DNA of 15,307 nucleotides, from the NCBI GenBank assembly GCA_024691045.1, contig JAILOC010000111.1, positions 1 to 15,307 on the forward strand, written 5' to 3'. The DNA comes from Lachnospiraceae bacterium. Lineage in GTDB: Bacteria > Bacillota_A > Clostridia > Lachnospirales > Lachnospiraceae. A model generated the notes under the pieces. The model was not told the DNA's origin, did no database searches, and was given only the letters and a program-made list of their open reading frames with translations. A program made the position numbers and the translations under genes. Below are positions 4,020 to 12,229 of the stretch, piece after piece. Numbering within the stretch: the first letter of the stretch is position 1; each line of letters opens with the position of its first letter.

Positions 4020-5834
4020 ATGGCAAGAAATAAGATTAACGAAGATGAATATCTTGAGGAGTCATTTAACTTAGAGCAGCTCAAGAGGCTCGGACATTAT
4101 GTCGGAGCCTTCAAGGGCAAGCTGACGTTTACGGTAGTGATAATGATCATATCCAGCGGACTTACGATGCTCATTCCCATATTCATGAAGAATGTCATGG
4201 ATGTGATCACTGAGTCCAACTTCGGAAACGGATTGTCGGAATCGGATGCAATCAGCAAGATTGTTTTTTACTCTGTGCTGACATTCCTTATCACCGTTGT
4301 ATGTGCGGTCATCACGAGAGTCAAGATCAAGCTCACATCCCAGGTCGGCCAGGGCGTTATATACAATCTCAGAAGGGAACTGTTTGTTCACCTTCAGGAG
4401 CTTCCCTTCTCGTATTTTGATGACAAGCCCCACGGCAAGATCCAGGTAAGGGTGGTCAACTATGTAAACAATCTGTCCGATCTTCTGTCCAACGGTATCG
4501 TAAATACGATCACGGATATCTTCTCGATGATGTTCATCGTGGTCTATATGCTGTACCTGGATGTGAGGTTCACGCTGATAGTACTGTGCGGAATGCCGGT
4601 ACTTGCGACGATAATTGTTTTCATCAAGAGCAGACAGCACAAGGCATGGCAGATACAGTCCAATAAACAGTCGAACCTGAACGCCTACATTGCGGAATCC
4701 GTAAACGGCATACGCGTTACACAGTCTTTTGTCAGGGAAGATTACAATACGGATTATTTTAATGTGCTCAATAAGGAGGCACAGAGATCCTGGCTTACCG
4801 CGGTCAAGTACAACTTCATTCTCTGGCCCGTTATCAACAACATAAACACGATATCCGCGAGCGTTATATATGTTCTCGGAATCGGCTGGCTCGCAAGAGG
4901 CAATGTGACCATAACCGCCGGATTGCTCATAGCATTTGCGGGATATGCCGCAAGATTCTGGCAGCCCATCATGACTCTGGCGAATTTCTACAATTCCCTC
5001 CTTACTGCGATCTCGTATCTGGAGAGGATATTCGAAACGATCGATGCGCCCGTGCTTGTCAAGGATAAAGAAGGTGCGGGACAGATGCCTGCCATAAAGG
5101 GTGAGGTCGAATACAGGGATGTAAGATTTGCTTACGAAGACGGCGTGGAGATACTGCACGGTGTTTCGTTCAGGGTAAATCCCGGAGAAAGCTATGCAAT
5201 AGTCGGACCTACCGGTGCGGGCAAGACGACGATCGTCAATCTGATCAGCAGGTTCTATAACGTAACATCCGGTGAGATACTGATAGACGGAGTAAATATT
5301 GAGGATGTTACCATTAAATCACTCAGGACACAGATGGGTGTAATGATGCAGGATTCATTCATCTTCTCCGGAACGATAAAGGATAATATAAGATACGGCA
5401 ACAAGACTGCCACGGATGATGATGTCATAAGGGCTGCCAAGACCGTATGCGCACACGACTTCATTATGTCTCTCGAAAAGGGATATGACACCGAGGTGAA
5501 TGAGAGAGGATCCAGACTGTCCGCGGGACAAAGACAGCTCATCTCTTTCGCCAGGGCGGTTCTCGCCGATCCCAAGATCCTGATACTCGATGAAGCTACC
5601 GCTGCGATCGATACCGAAACCGAGATCCTCCTTCAGGAAGGCCTTGCAAGAATGCTGAAGGGAAGGACGTCATTTATCATCGCACACAGACTCTCCACCA
5701 TCAGGAATGCCGACTGCATCATGTATGTCGACCACGGAATGATAGAGGAAAAGGGAACTCATGACGAACTTATGAAGATAGAGAACGGTAATTACAGAAG
5801 GCTGGTCGAATCCCAGCTGGATGCCTTTACCTGA
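4020..5834 (+). CDS. ABC exporter subunit with consensus ATP site (heterodimer partner 2)
   Basis: This 604-residue half-transporter has an N-terminal membrane domain of six predicted helices (about 35-335) and an ATPase domain (about 360-604). Motifs are Walker A GPTGAGKTT (396-404), Q444, signature LSAGQ (500-504), Walker B ILILDE with catalytic E525, and H-loop H556 in IIAHRLSTI. It therefore supplies the full catalytic Walker A/B set, completed by the canonical LSGGQ of the upstream subunit. Its own altered LSAGQ faces the degenerate site of the partner, exactly as in known heterodimeric exporters. GGAG (4009-4012) lies seven bases before the ATG. The 55-base spacer from the first gene contains GCCGG (3986-3990) and CCGGC (4004-4008), a possible hairpin that could tune relative expression. 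Its 3' end overlaps the convergent DUF5688-like gene by eight bases. Substrate unknown. Confidence 0.92.
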   Translation: MARNKINEDEYLEESFNLEQLKRLGHYVGAFKGKLTFTVVIMIISSGLTMLIPIFMKNVMDVITESNFGNGLSESDAISKIVFYSVLTFLITVVCAVITRVKIKLTSQVGQGVIYNLRRELFVHLQELPFSYFDDKPHGKIQVRVVNYVNNLSDLLSNGIVNTITDIFSMMFIVVYMLYLDVRFTLIVLCGMPVLATIIVFIKSRQHKAWQIQSNKQSNLNAYIAESVNGIRVTQSFVREDYNTDYFNVLNKEAQRSWLTAVKYNFILWPVINNINTISASVIYVLGIGWLARGNVTITAGLLIAFAGYAARFWQPIMTLANFYNSLLTAISYLERIFETIDAPVLVKDKEGAGQMPAIKGEVEYRDVRFAYEDGVEILHGVSFRVNPGESYAIVGPTGAGKTTIVNLISRFYNVTSGEILIDGVNIEDVTIKSLRTQMGVMMQDSFIFSGTIKDNIRYGNKTATDDDVIRAAKTVCAHDFIMSLEKGYDTEVNERGSRLSAGQRQLISFARAVLADPKILILDEATAAIDTETEILLQEGLARMLKGRTSFIIAHRLSTIRNADCIMYVDHGMIEEKGTHDELMKIENGNYRRLVESQLDAFT

Positions 5835-5848
5835 ACGCATCTTTTTTT
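5820..5848 (+). terminator. Weak intrinsic terminator spanning the end of the ABC operon
   Basis: GATGC (5820-5824) pairs with GCATC (5837-5841) around a 12-base loop, directly followed by seven T residues (5842-5848). The hairpin includes the stop codon. The stem is only five pairs (six with a G-U), so efficiency may be low, but the position and T-run fit. Confidence 0.42.
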
Positions 5849-6687
5849 CCGCCACAGCTTCTTTTCCAGTCCAATAATTTATTTCTGGTTTCAGGATCCC
5901 CCCAGGCGCTTGCTATGCAGCCTCGGGGGATATTTGTTTCCTTGGGCGGTTCGGTATCCGGAGCCTCTTTTTCGGGCGAGTTGTCCAGGAGGAGTTTGTT
6001 TTTTCTCAAATACTTATATATCCGGGGTTCCGGAGAATCCTTGCCGAACCGTTCGCAGTATCTTGCGGCGTATCTTTCTATAGCCTTTCTTTTCACACCA
6101 TCGAACACAAAAAGCTTCCCCGGTTCGCAGATAAGAATGGCCGGATCCGTCCGCAGAACTCTTCCTATGGTCAGCAGCATATCGGGATACAGGATCGGGG
6201 TGTCTCCGACAAGGGGAGATGTGGTAACTATGAGTCTTAAACCGGACGATCGCCCCGCCGATACGGCATCATAGATCCCCTGGCTTTCGGCTGCCGCGGA
6301 CACGGATCTTGTGTTTTCGAAATCATAGGCCACAGAGTGTTTCTCCGAATAATCTATGTAGCCCGAAGTTTCCAGATCGTAGATCTTCGGCGGAAACAGG
6401 GCGGCTGTGTTTGCAATCGCCTCATCGAATATTGCATTTAACGGCACGTTCCATTCTGCGGTATCACACCTGCTTACGGGGATCAGGAGGTGCTCGCCGC
6501 CTTGAAATGCATATCTGTGCAGCGTGACAAGGATTCCCTTTTTTATCATGGAGACTTTCGAGATCTCCGTGACAAGTCTTCCCTCAGGCGCCGAACCGGT
6601 CACGCACAGACTGCTTTTGACATCAAAATAATCTTTTTTGGCTCTGTTTATCCAGAGCAGGGGATCGTCTTTATTTTCTGAGATCAT
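5827..6687 (-). CDS. DUF5688-like protein of unknown function
   Basis: This 286-residue soluble protein has no signal peptide or membrane helix. A central and C-terminal pattern, with WNVPLNAIFDEAIANTAALF (beginning near residue 78) followed by TPILYPDMLLTIGRVL (beginning near 163), reminds me of the DUF5688 family of Clostridia, where a tryptophan, an A-x-x-N-T-x-x-LFP stretch and a Y-P-x-x-L stretch recur. The usual PSS-I-H-E-like motif is not present; CEPGKLFVFDG occupies that place, so this would be a divergent member. The tail is rich in Pro, Glu and Lys. ATG 6687 was chosen because AAAGGTGA sits just upstream (6693-6700); a GTG at 6696 lies inside that ribosome site. It follows the XRE gene by 21 bases, so the two are probably co-transcribed. 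No catalytic residues are recognised. The family assignment is from memory and moderately sure; the function is unknown. Confidence 0.6.
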   Translation of the reverse strand: MISENKDDPLLWINRAKKDYFDVKSSLCVTGSAPEGRLVTEISKVSMIKKGILVTLHRYAFQGGEHLLIPVSRCDTAEWNVPLNAIFDEAIANTAALFPPKIYDLETSGYIDYSEKHSVAYDFENTRSVSAAAESQGIYDAVSAGRSSGLRLIVTTSPLVGDTPILYPDMLLTIGRVLRTDPAILICEPGKLFVFDGVKRKAIERYAARYCERFGKDSPEPRIYKYLRKNKLLLDNSPEKEAPDTEPPKETNIPRGCIASAWGDPETRNKLLDWKRSCGGKKDAFR

Positions 6688-6708
6688 TTCCTTCACCTTT
6701 GCTTTCTC

Positions 6709-7179
6709 TCAATTATGATATCTGGAGTGAGTCATAAGCAGATCAAGATGATCACTTAGAACTTCGTATCCGTATGTATTAAGCATTGAGCAGACATAAA
6801 TGTATTTCTGGTCCGTCGGTCTGGCGGCCGGGTTTCCCATGCCAAAGAACGCATTCTTGTTGATATCCGGCACGTAACCGAACAGTCTTACGATCTCCGG
6901 GGTTGTTATCATCCTGTTTCCGTTTTCGATATTTGAAACCGCCGGCTGGTCTATCCCCAGCACCATTCCGAGCTCATCCTGCGTGTGATTTATACTTTCC
7001 CGTATGATCTTCACGCTGTTTCCCAGAGTGATCTTCAGTTCTTCGCTTCCTTCCGGCCGGACCGGATATTCACGGATGCCGGCCCGCCCTTCCAGGAATT
7101 TTATGATTGCACTGTACTTTTCTTCTTTTGTCATCTTCGGACGGATCTCGCAAAGTATTCCGCACACAATAAAATCCAT
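6709..7179 (-). CDS. XRE-family helix-turn-helix protein
   Basis: This 156-residue protein has a Cro/C1-type HTH at about residues 52-106. It includes SVKIIRESINHTQDELGMVL and GIDQPAVSNIENGNR, the standard XRE pattern of a T-Q-x-E-L first helix followed by a V-S-x-I-E-x-G recognition region. The N-terminal 50 residues (MDFIVCGILCEIRPKMTKEE onward) and the C-terminal 45 are not recognised and may mediate oligomerisation or partner binding. The start at 7179 is supported by GGGAG seven bases upstream; an internal ATG at 7134 lacks a comparable site. It precedes the DUF5688-like gene by 21 bases and is divergent from the TIR gene across 205 bases. Divergent placement suggests it may bind the shared intergenic region, where two palindromes lie, but targets cannot be proven from sequence. 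An antitoxin-like role is another possibility. Confidence 0.85.
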   Translation of the reverse strand: MDFIVCGILCEIRPKMTKEEKYSAIIKFLEGRAGIREYPVRPEGSEELKITLGNSVKIIRESINHTQDELGMVLGIDQPAVSNIENGNRMITTPEIVRLFGYVPDINKNAFFGMGNPAARPTDQKYIYVCSMLNTYGYEVLSDHLDLLMTHSRYHN

Positions 7180-7384: not shown

Positions 7385-10300
7385 ATGGCAAATAAGTACA
7401 ATGCATTCATTTCATACAGACATGCCCCCGAAGACATAAAGATTGCTTCGGAAGTGCAGAAATCGCTTGAAAGATTTAAGATTCCGCCTGCCATTCAGCA
7501 GAAGACGGGGATCAGGAGATTCGAGAGAATATTCCGCGATAAGGAAGAACTTCCCATCACCGCGGACCTTAACGATGATATAGATGAAGCTATCAAGAAT
7601 TCGGATAACCTGATCGTTATCTGCTCGACCAGGACGAGTGAATCCATCTGGGTAAGGAAGGAGATCGAGACCTTCCTTAAGTACCATACGAAAAAAGAGA
7701 TCTTTACCGTACTTGTCGACGGTGAGCCCGAGGATGTCATACCCGACATCCTGCAGCATGACACGATAACCATAAAGAAGGCTGACGGAACCACGGAAAC
7801 CAGGGAAGCGCTCATAGAGCCCCTCAGCTGTGATTACAGGATCGGAATAAAGAAGGCACGCAAGGTGGAGCTTCCCAGACTTGCGGCTTCACTTCTGGGA
7901 TGCTCGTATGATGAGCTTGTTCAGAGAAGAAGACAGTATGAAAGAAGAAGAAATGCGATAATCGGAACGGTTTCCACATGTGCCGGACTCAGCATTATGG
8001 CATACCTTGTATGGAGCCTTCTTCAGATCAGGATGAATTATGACCTGGCGCAGCAGAATTATGAGATGGCACAGAATAACCTGGCTCTTGCTCAGGCCCA
8101 TTACGAGACTGCCCAGGCGAATTATCAGGAATCTCTCAGAAATCAGTCCGAGTTCCTTGCGACCGTATCGGGGCAGCTGCTTGAAAAAGATGACAAGGTA
8201 AATGCAGTACTGCTCGCACTTGCGGCGCTTCCTTCCGAGGGTGATAGCAGGCCTGTTACCACCAGGGCGGAATATGCGCTTACAAATGCCCTCGGATGTT
8301 ATCTTTCACCCGGCGCCTTTGGAATGGAGCCCATCTGGAAGTACAGCACTTCCTATAAGATCGAAAAATACATTGTCACTCAGGATATGACAAAACTCAT
8401 TGCGCTTGATTCCTACGGAGATGTCACGATATGGAATCTCAGTGATCACAGCATTTATAAGGTGATACCGCGTGAGGGAACCGAAGCCCATGATTTTGCC
8501 ATAAACAGGGAAGGTACGATTGTCATACATTATCATGAAAAACTGGTTGCATATGACAGTAAATATGAAAACATGCTCTGGAGCATAGATCTTGATTCCG
8601 ATCATATGGGCTATTCCGATCTGAAATCCGTCTATATGATAACGGAAGGCGAAGAGGTTCTGTATTCAGGATTGACCCACGCGATGGTGGTGGATATCGG
8701 GACCGGTTCTGTTGAACTTGACCTGGATATTGAAAGTGAATTTCCCACGGATGATTATTCGGTGTACCAGCCCTCTATCAGTATGGTAAAAGCATCCCAG
8801 GACGGCAGGCTGATCGCCGTTTCACTTGGATCTTCATATGACTCAATACGTATCTGTGTATATGACAGGGATTCTTCCGAATGGAACGAGATGGCGGATA
8901 CATTCTGGTATGTTTATTTCATGAAGTTCACATCTGATAATGAGCTTGTCATTTCTTATGAAACGGACAGTTCTGAATCTATGAATTTTTCAATAGGTGC
9001 AATGGAATATCTCACCGACAGAATCCGTACCGTAGGAAAATTTAACCCCCATTCCGGAAAGAAAGAATGGGATGAACAGATTCCCTATACCTTATCAAGC
9101 GGAACGAGTCAGATCCTTCTGTGTGAATTCAGTGATTCCGGTGAAAAAGTTCCGGCCGCCGCTGTTATCTTCTCCAATAAGCTGTATGTATTGGGACTGA
9201 AGGACGGAAAGGTATTATCCCGTAATGAGATGACGGGCGAGCATATCACGTCATATATGACCACAAATGGTGATGGTATCGTGGTGGTTCTGAAATCGGG
9301 CAAGTACATGTTCGTTTCCCTGTCGGACGATTCGGTCCACATCGGTTCTTTCGATTTTTTCCTTAACGGCGTAACCGATGCATGCGCATATTATTGCGAA
9401 GAAGAACAGGACAATCATTATCTGATCAAGTATGCGGATCAGAACGGAATAATAGAATACGACTACGAGTATTATGATGACAGTTATAAAGCGGTCGAAG
9501 GTGTGGAGGATGGTGAAACCCTGTGTTCTTCAATCGTGGCCGGAGACAAGGTTCTGTTGTTTGGCGATATGATGAATCTGTATTGCTTCGATCCGTCATC
9601 GGGAACTATTGATTGGAAGAAAAAAATTGAAGGAAGCAGTTACGCATCCATGAGGTTTGTATATGCCGCTCCTGACGGTATCGTGTACCTGATCTATTCA
9701 GGCGTTCTTGAGGGCGAGGACAGAATGGGAGATAAGCTGTTTGCACTGGATATTTCCGACGGCAGTATGAGCCGTGTGGAAAACATTCCATACTGCAGAT
9801 CCATAGACGAATGCTGTGCCGATAACAAGATATTCATGGCTATCACCGGAGATGCCGAATATCCTTCGGGAATATATGTTTATGATTGTTCATCACATAC
9901 GGCAGAGATGCTGGAACTTCAGGCGACCGAAGACACGTCTTTTGGTCATGGCGAGCTGTCGGTTTCTCCCGACGGCAAAAAGGCGGTCTTTATTCCGTAT
10001 GAATATAATTATATACCTATAAATGCATACATCATTGATCTGGAAACAAGAGAATATAAAACGGTATCCTGCATCTCACATTCACATGCGGCATGGGATA
10101 TGGATTCCGGGAAATACGCTATAGGAAACGTAAATTATGTTGTCGTGTATGATTATACGGACGGAGAGTTCCTTACGATTCCCAGGGGTGATTCCGACAT
10201 AGTAAGCCTGGCTTTTTGCGAAAAAGGTCTTATAACCTACTCCCAGATGGATAACCTCTCGCTGTATGATCTCGAAGGAAACATGATCGGGAATACCCAG

Positions 10301-10618
10301 CTGCAGGGATTGGGAAATCCTCAATATGACAGTATTACAATTACCGACCTGGGAGATGAACTGCTTGTCCGCTGTGATGTGTATGACAGCATAATCAATA
10401 AGGAAGATTTCGAAATACGGACACATATTTACGGTCTTATGTGTTACGATAACGAAAACGGAAGATTTTTTGTCAAGACATTTGCCCATCTTAAGGGTGT
10501 TCCGAATTTCATATATTATGACAGGCTTTCGGTAGATGAGCTTATCGAAAAGGGCAGGGAATATATTGGTGAAGTGACACTCAGTGAAGAAATGAAAAAT
10601 CTGTACGGAATCTCATAA
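7385..10618 (+). CDS. TIR-domain membrane protein with heptad coiled coil and beta-propeller-like ectodomain
   Basis: The product has 1077 residues. An N-terminal TIR domain (about 5-130) starts YNAFISYRH, continues with RIFRDKEELP (48-57) and LIVICS (76-81), and carries SIWVRKEIE (87-95). E93 aligns with the glutamate used by NAD-cleaving TIR domains such as SARM1 (W-V-x-K-E-I). A basic stretch (RRRQYERRRN, 181-190) precedes one membrane helix (191-213). By the positive-inside rule, TIR is cytoplasmic and the rest outside. Five heptads (218-252) suggest a coiled coil. A helical linker with VNAVLLALAALPSE (272-285) follows, then about 750 residues of WD40/PQQ-like blades, for example DVTIWNLSD (346-354), KLVAYDSKYENMLWSIDLD (about 386-404), LYVLGLKDGK (about 600), LYCFDPSSGTIDW (about 731-743) and SVSPDGKKAVF (about 859-869). 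GGAGG (7373-7377) sits seven bases before ATG. It appears monocistronic, with its own promoter and terminator. Likely a sensor or effector; ligand and output are unknown. Membrane orientation is predicted only. Confidence 0.9.
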   Translation: MANKYNAFISYRHAPEDIKIASEVQKSLERFKIPPAIQQKTGIRRFERIFRDKEELPITADLNDDIDEAIKNSDNLIVICSTRTSESIWVRKEIETFLKYHTKKEIFTVLVDGEPEDVIPDILQHDTITIKKADGTTETREALIEPLSCDYRIGIKKARKVELPRLAASLLGCSYDELVQRRRQYERRRNAIIGTVSTCAGLSIMAYLVWSLLQIRMNYDLAQQNYEMAQNNLALAQAHYETAQANYQESLRNQSEFLATVSGQLLEKDDKVNAVLLALAALPSEGDSRPVTTRAEYALTNALGCYLSPGAFGMEPIWKYSTSYKIEKYIVTQDMTKLIALDSYGDVTIWNLSDHSIYKVIPREGTEAHDFAINREGTIVIHYHEKLVAYDSKYENMLWSIDLDSDHMGYSDLKSVYMITEGEEVLYSGLTHAMVVDIGTGSVELDLDIESEFPTDDYSVYQPSISMVKASQDGRLIAVSLGSSYDSIRICVYDRDSSEWNEMADTFWYVYFMKFTSDNELVISYETDSSESMNFSIGAMEYLTDRIRTVGKFNPHSGKKEWDEQIPYTLSSGTSQILLCEFSDSGEKVPAAAVIFSNKLYVLGLKDGKVLSRNEMTGEHITSYMTTNGDGIVVVLKSGKYMFVSLSDDSVHIGSFDFFLNGVTDACAYYCEEEQDNHYLIKYADQNGIIEYDYEYYDDSYKAVEGVEDGETLCSSIVAGDKVLLFGDMMNLYCFDPSSGTIDWKKKIEGSSYASMRFVYAAPDGIVYLIYSGVLEGEDRMGDKLFALDISDGSMSRVENIPYCRSIDECCADNKIFMAITGDAEYPSGIYVYDCSSHTAEMLELQATEDTSFGHGELSVSPDGKKAVFIPYEYNYIPINAYIIDLETREYKTVSCISHSHAAWDMDSGKYAIGNVNYVVVYDYTDGEFLTIPRGDSDIVSLAFCEKGLITYSQMDNLSLYDLEGNMIGNTQLQGLGNPQYDSITITDLGDELLVRCDVYDSIINKEDFEIRTHIYGLMCYDNENGRFFVKTFAHLKGVPNFIYYDRLSVDELIEKGREYIGEVTLSEEMKNLYGIS
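8036..8140 (+). repeat. Five 21-bp (seven-codon) repeats encoding a coiled-coil stalk
   Basis: Residues 218-252 of the TIR protein fall into five heptads: NYDLAQQ, NYEMAQN, NLALAQA, HYETAQA and NYQESLR. Each spans 21 bases, starting at 8036, 8057, 8078, 8099 and 8120. Tyr or Leu at position 2 and Ala at position 5 recur, giving a regular apolar stripe directly after the membrane helix. Codons vary between copies, so the repeat is held at the protein level more than at the DNA level. Confidence 0.8.
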
Positions 10619-10630
10619 AAGTATAAAATG

Positions 10631-10665
10631 AAAAAAGCCAGGAGAGGTTATCTCCTGACTTTTTT
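10631..10665. terminator. Strong bidirectional intrinsic terminator
   Basis: CAGGAGA (10639-10645) pairs with TCTCCTG (10651-10657) around the loop GGTTA. It is extended by AAAAAAG (10631-10637) against CTTTTTT (10659-10665), with one C/A mismatch. The T-run follows the stem on either strand, so it can end both the TIR gene from the left and the DHH gene from the right. Confidence 0.92.
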
Positions 10666-10686: not shown

Positions 10687-12213
10687 TTATTTTACCAGCT
10701 TGTATGATTCCTTGAAGAGATCCTTGCCGATGATATATACATCGTCCTGATCCGACGCTTTCATTGCGAGATAATCTCCGATCTCTCCGTTTAGATAATC
10801 GTTCTTGAGCCACTTGGTAAATACCTTTGCCCTTCTCTTGAGAGGCTTAGCAAGGATGTGGTTTCCGCCTGTGGATACACACATTTTCGCTACGGGAATC
10901 AGATTGAGGATCTCACTGGTTGACAGGATCCTTACGGTGGGTGAGTATTCCAGCTTCAGGTTGTATTTGCCTGCAAGCTTTTTATAATTCTTTTTAAATA
11001 CGGTCTGGGTTGAAGGATAAACCTCGCCTCTTATTCCGATCATTATGACAGTATCTTCTTCGACTGTCAGATAGATATCGCCTTCCAGTGTTCTGACGAG
11101 AACTTTGGTTCCGATGGGAAGGAATTCCTTCGGGATCGCATATCCCTGTTTGATGGGCATCTTGACGTATTCCTTCATTCCCTTTGTTGTCACTTTAGTC
11201 TTGCCCGCATATATGACGTCCACGCTTGTGAAATAATCGTGGAGCCTTTCACGTAGAATGGAAGTGACCGCTGCGGCTTTTTCTTTTTCGGATGATTCGG
11301 CGTATCTTTTGTATTCCTGTTCAAGGAGCTCGTTCTGAATGAAACCGCCGGCCTTGTTTACATGTCCGCCGCCGCTTCCGATCTTTTCGGATATGTATGA
11401 TGCGAGCTCATCTGCACGTACTTCCGCGTAGTCGCTTCTGATGGAGAACTTGACACCGTAATCAAGTACGGAGAATACGAGACATACATTGACCGTATCG
11501 ACTGCCAGGAAGAAATCGCTTATAAGGCCGAGTATATTGGGGTCGCAGGGCTGTGCTTCGAGGATCGCATAATTGTGATCCTGATGGTATTCCACACCCA
11601 GAAGAGCGACACCTGCGATCTTCGCCTCTTCGAGGGAGATGTTCATTCCGTTCAGTCTTCTGAGAAGAACCTGATCCACATATAATTCTTCCAGCATATC
11701 CTTATCCAGGGGATGGAATAATTCGGAGAGGGAATTGGTGTCGGTGAACAGGCCGTAATACATTGCCGACGAAACTTCCGGCCCGGGCTGGTATTTTTCC
11801 TTTTTCATCATATCCCAGATAACGGTACAGCATGAGCCGATTCCGGATCTGATCTCGTGAAGCTTCGGAAGTCTCTTGCCGGGAGCAACCTGGTGGTGGT
11901 CTATTATCGCAATCTCCTTGGCATCGAACATGGTAACATTGCTCTCACCGTACTGGCAGTCACAGGTTAAGAGCAGATCCGGATTTCCTATATTCGATGT
12001 TTCGAATTCGATGGGAATCTCAAGAGCTTCGACCAGATATTCAAGATTTGACTTGGATATCTTTTTCTTGCCCGAATAGATGAAACGGACCTTTTTTTCC
12101 TTTTCCTTAAAGTACGAATATAGGGCAAATCCGGAGCCTATGGCATCTGCGTCGGGGTTGTCGTGGCACTGGATAACGATATTGTCGAACTTGAGAAGAT
12201 CGGACAGTTTCAT
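10687..12213 (-). CDS. DHH-family phosphoesterase with C-terminal extension
   Basis: This 508-residue cytoplasmic protein has the DHH/DHHA1 core of NrnA and RecJ relatives. Motifs are HDNPDADAIGSG (17-28), LTCDCQYG (82-89), the namesake IDHHQ (104-108), GLFTDTNS (154-161), and the DHHA1 glycine-rich GSGGGHVNKAGG (279-290). Such enzymes use paired divalent metals to cleave short oligonucleotides, pAp or cyclic-dinucleotide products; the exact substrate cannot be told here. NrnA proteins are usually about 310-340 residues, so residues from about 335 to 508 form an additional module. That region holds two similar endings, RGEVYPSTQTVFKKNYKKL (395-413) and a stretch finishing KDLFKESYKLV (497-507). 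The start at 12213 is set by GGGAG six bases upstream; an ATG at 12228 overlaps that ribosome site. It appears monocistronic, ends at the shared terminator at 10631-10665, and is divergent from the SDR gene. Confidence 0.9.
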   Translation of the reverse strand: MKLSDLLKFDNIVIQCHDNPDADAIGSGFALYSYFKEKEKKVRFIYSGKKKISKSNLEYLVEALEIPIEFETSNIGNPDLLLTCDCQYGESNVTMFDAKEIAIIDHHQVAPGKRLPKLHEIRSGIGSCCTVIWDMMKKEKYQPGPEVSSAMYYGLFTDTNSLSELFHPLDKDMLEELYVDQVLLRRLNGMNISLEEAKIAGVALLGVEYHQDHNYAILEAQPCDPNILGLISDFFLAVDTVNVCLVFSVLDYGVKFSIRSDYAEVRADELASYISEKIGSGGGHVNKAGGFIQNELLEQEYKRYAESSEKEKAAAVTSILRERLHDYFTSVDVIYAGKTKVTTKGMKEYVKMPIKQGYAIPKEFLPIGTKVLVRTLEGDIYLTVEEDTVIMIGIRGEVYPSTQTVFKKNYKKLAGKYNLKLEYSPTVRILSTSEILNLIPVAKMCVSTGGNHILAKPLKRRAKVFTKWLKNDYLNGEIGDYLAMKASDQDDVYIIGKDLFKESYKLVK

Positions 12214-12229
12214 GTTACGCTCCCTCATA

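Follow-up and report, generated by a model that had tools for sequence, protein, structure and literature searches.

To our knowledge, bacterial TIR defenses sense infection inside the cell. NAD-cleaving TIR enzymes carry a catalytic Glu with a Trp four residues before it, and the bacterial TIR NADases, among them ThsB of Thoeris and SpbK, are soluble proteins that are paired with ThsA or work alone. Here we describe a gene in a 15,307-nucleotide stretch of Lachnospiraceae DNA (the window) whose product has the TIR fold with W...E in common with these enzymes and passes the Pfam ThsB_TIR cut-off, but which is predicted to be a single-pass membrane protein with a propeller ectodomain and a DHH neighbor.

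Thoeris has ThsA next to the TIR gene; no PADLOC model for ThsA matched among the 10 window proteins, the conserved neighbor being DHH. CBASS TIR effectors have a CD-NTase nearby and are joined to SAVED or STING domains; no CD-NTase model matched among the same 10 proteins and Pfam found neither SAVED nor STING on the receptor. PADLOC matched the receptor with weak TIR models only, and its SAVED_TIR hit (E 7.2e-8) covers just profile positions 16-149 of 404, that is, the receptor's TIR. The TIR conflict systems of multicellular bacteria, as outlined in passages of PMC7159879 and PMC8195603, combine a TIR nucleotide-signal effector with variable sensors, as here; the present receptor differs in having no NTPase domain in Pfam, and the word DHH does not occur in the texts of those two papers.

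Toll-like and IL-1 receptors are alike in their single pass, cytoplasmic TIR and external ligand-binding domain (excerpts of PMC7075850), whereas here the protein is bacterial, the TIR is N-terminal, propellers stand in for LRR or Ig domains, and W89/E93 are conserved. The original prediction saw the topology of a Toll-like receptor in reverse domain order. The similarity of layout stands, but a Toll-like receptor has an N-terminal LRR ectodomain, a membrane span and a C-terminal TIR; LRRs are absent here and the TIR is the only shared domain, so that the likeness is an analogy of layout and not membership. As for the neighbor, DhhP/GdpP/NrnA-type DHH-DHHA1 phosphodiesterases have their fold and motif residues in common with it, whereas it has an additional domain of some 170 residues at its C-terminus and pairs with TIR genes. 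A DHH-DHHA1 nuclease (Zhao 2020, as cited in PMC7824862) that breaks down a second messenger of type III CRISPR likewise clears an immune nucleotide signal, with a different signal source. Among the literature titles and abstract openings searched, a body that lies outside subscription journals and preprints, neither a membrane TIR-propeller receptor nor a TIR-DHH pair appeared.

Architecture and Distribution of the Receptor

The receptor gene and its parts are as follows.

7385..10618, + strand: gene encoding the 1077-aa TIR receptor
7385..7834, +: predicted cytoplasmic TIR domain, residues 1-150 (Pfam TIR_2/ThsB_TIR; model; profile match to plant TIRs and 7uxr)
7649..7663, +: candidate NADase motif W89...E93 (homologue alignment and profile match)
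7835..7954, +: residues 151-180, a juxtamembrane region that is conserved, with the basic stretch 181-190
7955..8023, +: membrane helix, residues 191-213 (hydropathy; helix 175-214 in the structure model)
8036..8140, +: five heptads, residues 218-252, with Asn (once His) at each seventh residue
8035-8074: 21-bp tandem repeat overlapping the heptad region
8186..8317, +: helical adaptor, residues 268-311 (structure model)
8268..10617, +: window equivalent of the ectodomain cassette shared by loci L001 and L002, residue 295 to stop
8321..9472, +: propeller 1, residues 313-696
9473..10522, +: predicted propeller 2, residues about 697-1046 (model strands; weaker structural match)

The layout first proposed for 7385-10618 (TIR, basic stretch, helix, heptads, propeller) holds: the reading frame runs from TIR through basic stretch, one membrane helix and heptad coil to two predicted beta-propellers, the domain order is conserved among homologues, the structure model supports the propeller fold, and none of the counter-evidence that the original prediction had named was found, topology being judged here by the positive-inside rule and the TIR fold from sequence profiles. 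To it we add the DHH-DHHA1 partner, interspecies exchange of ectodomains and a coil whose length changes in heptad steps.

Comparisons drew on 120 listed homologues (117 of them in alignment A1, which leaves out P0046, P0081 and P0085), on the loci of the best 80 of 554 confirmed relatives, a set that hence leans towards this receptor, and on 199 proteins comprising the 120 plus 79 locus ORFs of >850 aa with TIR identity >40%; some of the 199 are present twice, and 186 distinct rows were kept in one comparison. Among the loci, L029 had no TIR call in the ORF table. The phylum survey gave 5 of 398 genomes. Phages gave no match, viral contigs held no confirmed relative of the receptor or the DHH protein, and 10 plasmid records matched the N-terminal part only, none of them covering 80%. 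Searching PDB sequences with the full-length receptor returned one irrelevant row. The source bacterium is a relative of rumen species, and genome-level comparisons were made on related genomes.

A Putative NADase and Its Candidate Phosphodiesterase Partner

The N-terminus scores as a member of the TIR superfamily in Pfam (TIR_2, 45.5 bits against a cut-off of 28; ThsB_TIR, 40.2 against 21.2), as originally predicted. W89 and E93 are invariant in all 120 listed homologues and align with the W...E of 7uxr (a bacterial TIR domain protein), Roq1 and AT1G72930, the profile matches to plant TIRs and 7uxr being weak but consistent (E 0.0012-0.0032). E93 had been placed at the catalytic Glu, and these alignments agree; the TIR is thus a candidate NAD-cleaving enzyme that would act through W89/E93.

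The convergent neighbor has the following parts.

10687..12228, - strand: gene of the partner, a 513-aa DHH-DHHA1 phosphodiesterase extended at its C-terminus
11212..12222, -: residues 3-339, the catalytic DHH-DHHA1 part, in which the motif residues are conserved
10690..11211, -: C-terminal domain, residues 340-513, kin of stand-alone proteins adjoining nucleotidyl cyclases

In this protein the residues of the DHH motif and the GGGH motif of DHHA1 are intact: across 93 DHH sequences H22, D26, D28, D90, D110, H111, H112, D163, R264, G286-G288 and K292 are invariant, and H289 is found in at least 90%. PADLOC gave no match to the protein, and PGDYG (PF14083) had no match in it at E<=1 and reached 17.4 bits, below the cut-off of 27, in a stand-alone relative. 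A gene of this kind lies next to that of the TIR receptor in 56 of the 81 loci compared, and its relatives also adjoin other TIR proteins.

Taking these data together, we propose a surface receptor that is diversifying; once clustered, its TIRs would produce a nucleotide signal or consume NAD, and the DHH protein would switch the signal off or read it. We give this reading an even chance. Two external propellers would bind a variable ligand, and a helix of whole heptads would connect them through the membrane to the cytoplasmic TIR; on binding, the chains would cluster or re-orient and the TIRs assemble, cleaving NAD+ via W89/E93; this would yield a nucleotide signal (a cyclic phosphate or one of the cyclic ADP-ribose type) or drain NAD to a harmful degree. 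The DHH-DHHA1 enzyme would be the matched phosphodiesterase that removes the signal, as off-switch or threshold, or alternatively its C-terminal domain would read it. The ectodomain could be swapped whole between species, with TIR and DHH kept in place. More tentatively, the locus may represent a system of innate immunity or kin recognition distinct from Thoeris, CBASS and STAND, in which an ectodomain cassette exchanged in frame between species sits on a fixed helix-coil-TIR chassis that writes an NAD-derived message and is paired with its own phosphodiesterase eraser.

Several observations count against this explanation. The DHH neighbor is missing in 16 of the 72 loci with enough flank, and five of 13 genomes checked had no DHH match at E<=1e-10. 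The survey's 46 TIR places (all matches at E<=1e-10, shorter paralogues included) leave 25 of 42 long-DHH genes without an adjoining TIR place; these 42 have identity of at least 40% at near full length, together with a 283-residue piece in G105, and are counted without the N-terminal pieces in G221, G124, G143 and G247 and the forms of about 330 residues near 30% identity. Around the pair, no gene was identified whose product could be the effector of a TIR signal. Finally, the structures that best fit the DHH part point to c-di-AMP/pApA hydrolysis, and we know of no TIR that makes c-di-AMP or pApA.

A rather unlikely alternative is that the TIR is a scaffold and not an enzyme, the clustered receptor recruiting or allosterically switching the DHH protein and so altering a housekeeping dinucleotide pool (c-di-AMP or c-di-GMP/pGpG). 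The structural resemblance of the DHH part to c-di-AMP/pApA phosphodiesterases favors it (alignments over residues 2-338; 17-20% identity to TM1595, GdpP and Rv2837c), as do the C-terminal domain's relatives, which adjoin or are fused to nucleotidyl cyclases, and the GGDEF-EAL neighbors of two long-DHH genes (L107 and L108) among the 24 non-adjacent ones examined (G248 was left out, and L087 has one neighbor before the contig end), which suggest that the enzyme may act in a different nucleotide pathway. Yet a pure scaffold would not readily account for the invariance of W89/E93, and the cyclase operons also contain TIRs with no predicted membrane helix.

If the signaling receptor proposed above is real, its exchangeable outside sensor would let bacteria read contact or an extracellular cue, and the receptor would parallel Toll-like receptors in function while using the domain that both share. 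The substrate of the matched DHH enzyme should be the TIR's product, so that this enzyme would offer a route to the signal. The authors of a review (PMC12072042) found no reports of bacterial phosphodiesterases degrading messengers of the CBASS/Thoeris type; the TIR-DHH pair is a candidate for one.

Exchange of the Propeller Ectodomain

Propellers can move as a cassette between species. Loci L001 and L002, from two species, differ at 1.2% of bases from residue 295 to the stop codon and at 18.8% of aligned bases around it. In a second pair, seen at the protein level, P0009 and L004 are 98.4% identical in the propeller and 87.9% in the TIR. Among 188 proteins (near-duplicates removed), 106 pairs with TIR identity of at least 95% have propeller identities of 32-99% (median 56%). 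Natural chimeras with similar chassis and different sensors exist, which makes the ligand question testable. Block replacement would fit a receptor under diversification driven by recognition, whether of phage, rival bacteria or kin.

The divergence could instead be due to relaxed constraint or fast protein evolution, with the L001/L002 similarity an assembly artefact, which we regard as improbable. Propeller loops tolerate change, and L002 is a metagenome-assembled genome. Propeller synonymous divergence lies near that of flanking genes in WIN-L001 (0.72 against 0.49-0.64) and shows no excess in L001-L003 (0.60 against 0.54-0.64), while amino-acid divergence in both is far higher; this weakens any claim that propeller divergence exceeds fast protein evolution. 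On the other side, in WIN-L002, WIN-L003 and L002-L003, propeller pS (0.73, 0.72 and 0.61) is above that of the TIR (0.24, 0.30 and 0.30), the DHH gene (0.44, 0.48 and 0.40) and the MTHFR, AraC and ABC genes (0.42-0.61, 0.46-0.62 and 0.36-0.39). Since the synonymous excess is moderate outside L001/L002 and absent in L001-L003, much of the divergence could nevertheless be fast protein evolution. Against an artefact, the cassette lies in its own context in each locus, with adjoining windows 77-90% identical on both sides and junctions at residue 295 and the stop codon, and the P0009/L004 pair is a second case.

Diversity-generating retroelements (cf. excerpts of PMC10907252) were rejected as the origin of this variation; none of the window proteins scanned belongs to a reverse transcriptase family.

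Membrane Topology and the Heptad Coil

By hydropathy, 117 of the 120 homologues have one membrane helix, and in 116 of these 117 the more basic flank is on the TIR side. Under the positive-inside rule, the source of this topology, the receptor would be a single-pass surface protein with its TIR in the cytoplasm and its sensor outside, in line with the earlier proposal. It is very improbable that the whole protein is cytoplasmic or its propellers face inward, the hydrophobic segment being a mere anchor and the propellers scaffolds as in STAND/WD40 proteins: the segment in this member does have a modest mean hydropathy (1.8), the closest solved propellers are mostly intracellular and eukaryotic, and an N-terminal hydrophobic stretch occurs in only one of the 120, but this reading has against it the near-uniform basic flank and an exchanged block that comprises the propeller part alone, as for an exposed recognition surface.

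Coil length varies by whole heptads in 197 of the 199 proteins; the exceptions, L114 and L116, both lack the anchor tyrosine. These steps could be a product of slippage in the 21-bp repeat, and the Asn ladder may be a core that sets the oligomer.

Gene Neighborhood

It is hardly credible that the DHH gene is an unrelated housekeeping enzyme kept there by local synteny: the whole neighborhood is indeed conserved among the nearest loci, but among best-match homologues DHH is present in 55 of 80 loci and the other window genes in 4-14 of 80, the pair occurs in two orientations with short gaps or slight overlaps, almost no adjacency is expected by chance, and in a set of 249 genomes the co-occurrence of TIR and DHH has a Fisher p of 1.2e-10 (the related genomes not being independent). 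Two further features flank the receptor gene.

6709..7179, - strand: divergent XRE-type HTH gene, found at this position in 10 loci
10631..10665, no strand assigned: hairpin resembling a terminator, flanked by T runs on either strand and lying between the two convergent genes

The XRE-type HTH gene may be a member of the system. Convergent transcription of receptor and partner may act as antisense control, the hairpin lying between them. Hairpins of terminator-like pattern number seven in all, against 4.4 expected for what is a pattern match only, and the Rfam result is an S10 leader alone.

Exchange and divergence of the ectodomain

All results are computed; the loci compared are mostly metagenome assemblies and the structure predictions are of single chains. 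The decisive case concerns L001 (AC2028) and L002, which represents a different species and is a metagenome-assembled genome from a one-genome-per-species collection. Most 150-base windows across 12 kb of these loci are 75-91% identical, and those just before the receptor gene 55-76%, against 98.8% along 2350 bases. A two-breakpoint fit places the ends of this cassette at window-equivalent positions 8268 (residue 295) and 10617 (the stop codon), with 28 differences in 2350 positions inside and 1862 in 9886 outside (log-likelihood gain 331). Synonymous divergence (pS) is 0.02 in the propellers, 0.49 in TIR, 0.54 in DHH and 0.54-0.64 in the flanking MTHFR, AraC and both ABC genes. These breakpoints and the low propeller divergence show that the two lineages exchanged the ectodomain and only the ectodomain. 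A second case, P0009/L004, is seen in protein only (TIR 87.9%, propeller 98.4%).

Among 188 proteins (near-duplicates removed), 106 pairs have TIR domains at least 95% identical, with propeller identity ranging from 32 to 99% (median 56%) and below 65% in 69 pairs; P0011/P0017 and P0055/P0083 combine TIR identity of 100% with propeller identity of 48% and 51%, respectively. The opening 570 bases of the receptor gene are 92-97% identical between window and L002 DNA, most of DHH 85-91% and the propellers 52-77%. Six near relatives form 15 pairs: propeller pS lies at 0.60-0.73 in 13 of them (exceptions: window-L121, 0.35; L001-L002, 0.02) and TIR pS at 0.24-0.49. Amino-acid-changing divergence (pN) is much greater in the propellers in every comparison, at 0.26-0.31 in those same 13 pairs vs 0.00-0.02 in TIR.

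As evidence for exchange vs protein evolution, the divergent pairs are mixed. Propeller pS clearly exceeds that of flanking genes in window-L002, window-L003 and L002-L003, slightly in window-L001 and not in L001-L003; together with the high propeller pN, this suggests that both the import of older alleles and rapid protein evolution may contribute. TIR pS lies below flanking-gene pS in most pairs so compared, so the TIR itself may be the unusually similar part. Labels marking the propeller as the closer region in deeper pairs were rejected as exchange evidence, both regions being near saturation.

Some genomes carry paired nearby TIR receptor genes with differing ectodomains (L018:3157-10130, L053:7986-17818); those of L053 lie 3.5 kb apart, with TIR DNA 87% and propeller DNA 56% alike. 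Upstream of the receptor, an XRE-type regulator and a weakly DUF5688-like gene (window 5827-7179) hold position in 10 loci and diverge far more than surrounding genes (pN 0.10-0.36 vs 0.01-0.11 in MTHFR, AraC and ABC genes).

TIR domain, topology and coil

The original prediction placed E93 at the catalytic glutamate of NAD-cleaving TIRs, and this holds: a profile of our TIR alignment weakly matched plant Roq1, AT1G72930 and the bacterial TIR domain protein 7uxr (E 0.0012-0.0032), the printed alignments setting E93 against a glutamate and W89 against a tryptophan in each, residues that are catalytic in all three. Both are invariant in 120/120 homologues among the matches listed (933 further homologues lie outside that list) and in all 35 sequences of the partly overlapping TIR alignment (window plus 34 loci). 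By sequence, the domain belongs to the TIR superfamily with its enzyme motif and is likely catalytic.

The predicted topology, TIR inside, also agrees with the positive-inside rule: of the 117 homologues whose residues 170-240 include a hydrophobic segment, 116 carry more K/R on the TIR side. Heptads directly follow the membrane helix, with Asn (once His) at each seventh place from 218 to 253. The length from Tyr207 to 260 equals 26+7k in 120/120 listed homologues and in 197/199 of a larger, partly redundant set, both exceptions being distant members. On the TIR tree (186 distinct rows) coil length changed at least 17 times, twice in class modulo 7, whereas six of the variable control spans changed 18-64 times each, nearly always altering class; at least 15 of 17 class-preserving changes has a probability of 2e-11 at a 1-in-7 chance per change. 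Hence the linker lengthens by whole helical repeats. One 21-bp repeat is visible in the coil DNA and slippage of 21-bp units could cause such steps, so that selection for rotational phase is something we only infer.

The DHH-DHHA1 partner gene

10687-12228, minus strand: DHH-DHHA1 phosphodiesterase gene (513 aa), convergent neighbour of the receptor gene

The homology search for conserved neighbours, called for at the outset, found one. In 81 loci chosen as best matches (the window plus the 80 best of 554 confirmed relatives), a DHH homologue adjoins the TIR gene in 56, with one ORF between in two of these; other window genes have homologues in just 4-14 of the same 80 loci. DHH lies downstream and convergent in 36 loci; in the other 20 it sits upstream on the TIR gene's own strand, often overlapping that gene by a few bases. 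It is missing from 16 loci whose flanks extend 1.7 kb or more in each direction; contig ends truncate eight others, and one has no call. Among the 13 genomes behind DHH-less loci, eight carry a long DHH at another site, and five gave no match. With absence counted as a state, the 61 TIR-tree tips require at least 11 changes of arrangement (shuffled-label mean 25), so the pairing outlasted rearrangement. In the nearest genus, DHH adjoins the receptor in 13/13 loci reaching far enough (L131-L141, L144 and L145, the last with just the 3' part of the receptor).

A family survey of 249 genomes (a first-look filter, one genome per species) gave TIR matches at E<=1e-10 in 36 (46 places, shorter paralogues included) and long DHH in 40 (42 places). 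Both occur together in 21 (Fisher p 1.2e-10, without correction for relatedness). The two are adjacent at 17 places, with ~0.006 expected at 2,700 genes per genome.

Between the convergent genes, a 15-pair hairpin with T runs on both strands (window 10631-10665) is possibly a shared two-way terminator.

Proposed mechanism and alternatives

The simplest interpretation is a receptor at the cell surface that keeps its signalling chassis conserved while its sensor diversifies. Ligand binding outside would be relayed via the coil, leading the TIRs to assemble and cleave NAD, and the DHH enzyme would erase or read the TIR product; the outcome may be death, dormancy or gene regulation. The leading rival makes the TIR a scaffold controlling the DHH enzyme and so a housekeeping dinucleotide; the GGDEF-EAL and cyclase genes that neighbour DHH relatives favour it, but the invariance of W89 and E93 counts against it. 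Thoeris, CBASS and Toll-like receptors fall away: among the ten window proteins no ThsA model matched (Thoeris), CD-NTase, SAVED and STING domains were all not found (CBASS), and domain tests ruled out Toll-like receptor membership.

Searches of phage and viral collections found no relative, so the receptor looks like a chromosomal trait. Neither a TIR-propeller membrane receptor nor a TIR-DHH pair is described in the titles and abstract beginnings searched, and the words WD40 and propeller are absent from a TIR survey (PMC7075850).

Related arrangements

Proteins with TIR, hydrophobic helix and DUF6273 directly precede a long DHH gene at L092:4436-5956 and L093:137-1555, the same chassis idea with another second domain. 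DHH genes also directly adjoin large GGDEF-EAL proteins (L107:5935-10124, L108:3358-7517 and L110:3233-6962, the last DHH a short form).

A recurring row of three genes, possibly another nucleotide-signalling system, combines TIR (246-313 aa) and a class III nucleotidyl cyclase (~500 aa) with a free-standing protein of 300-342 aa related to the DHH C-terminal domain:

L101:4453-7768, three-gene row
L103:5969-9365, three-gene row
L104:6032-9419, three-gene row
L105:3696-6835, three-gene row
L106:5986-9482, three-gene row

Both of its TIR proteins checked lack a hydrophobic helix; a GGDEF-like gene lies beyond the TIR on the far side in L104, L105 and L106, and in L102 the cyclase is fused with the C-terminal-domain relative. 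Of 17 genomes with the long receptor, 7 also contain a second TIR match, which lies in an open frame of 788-823 aa (G001:C7:253766, G002:C34:11419, G003:C4:142796 and others).
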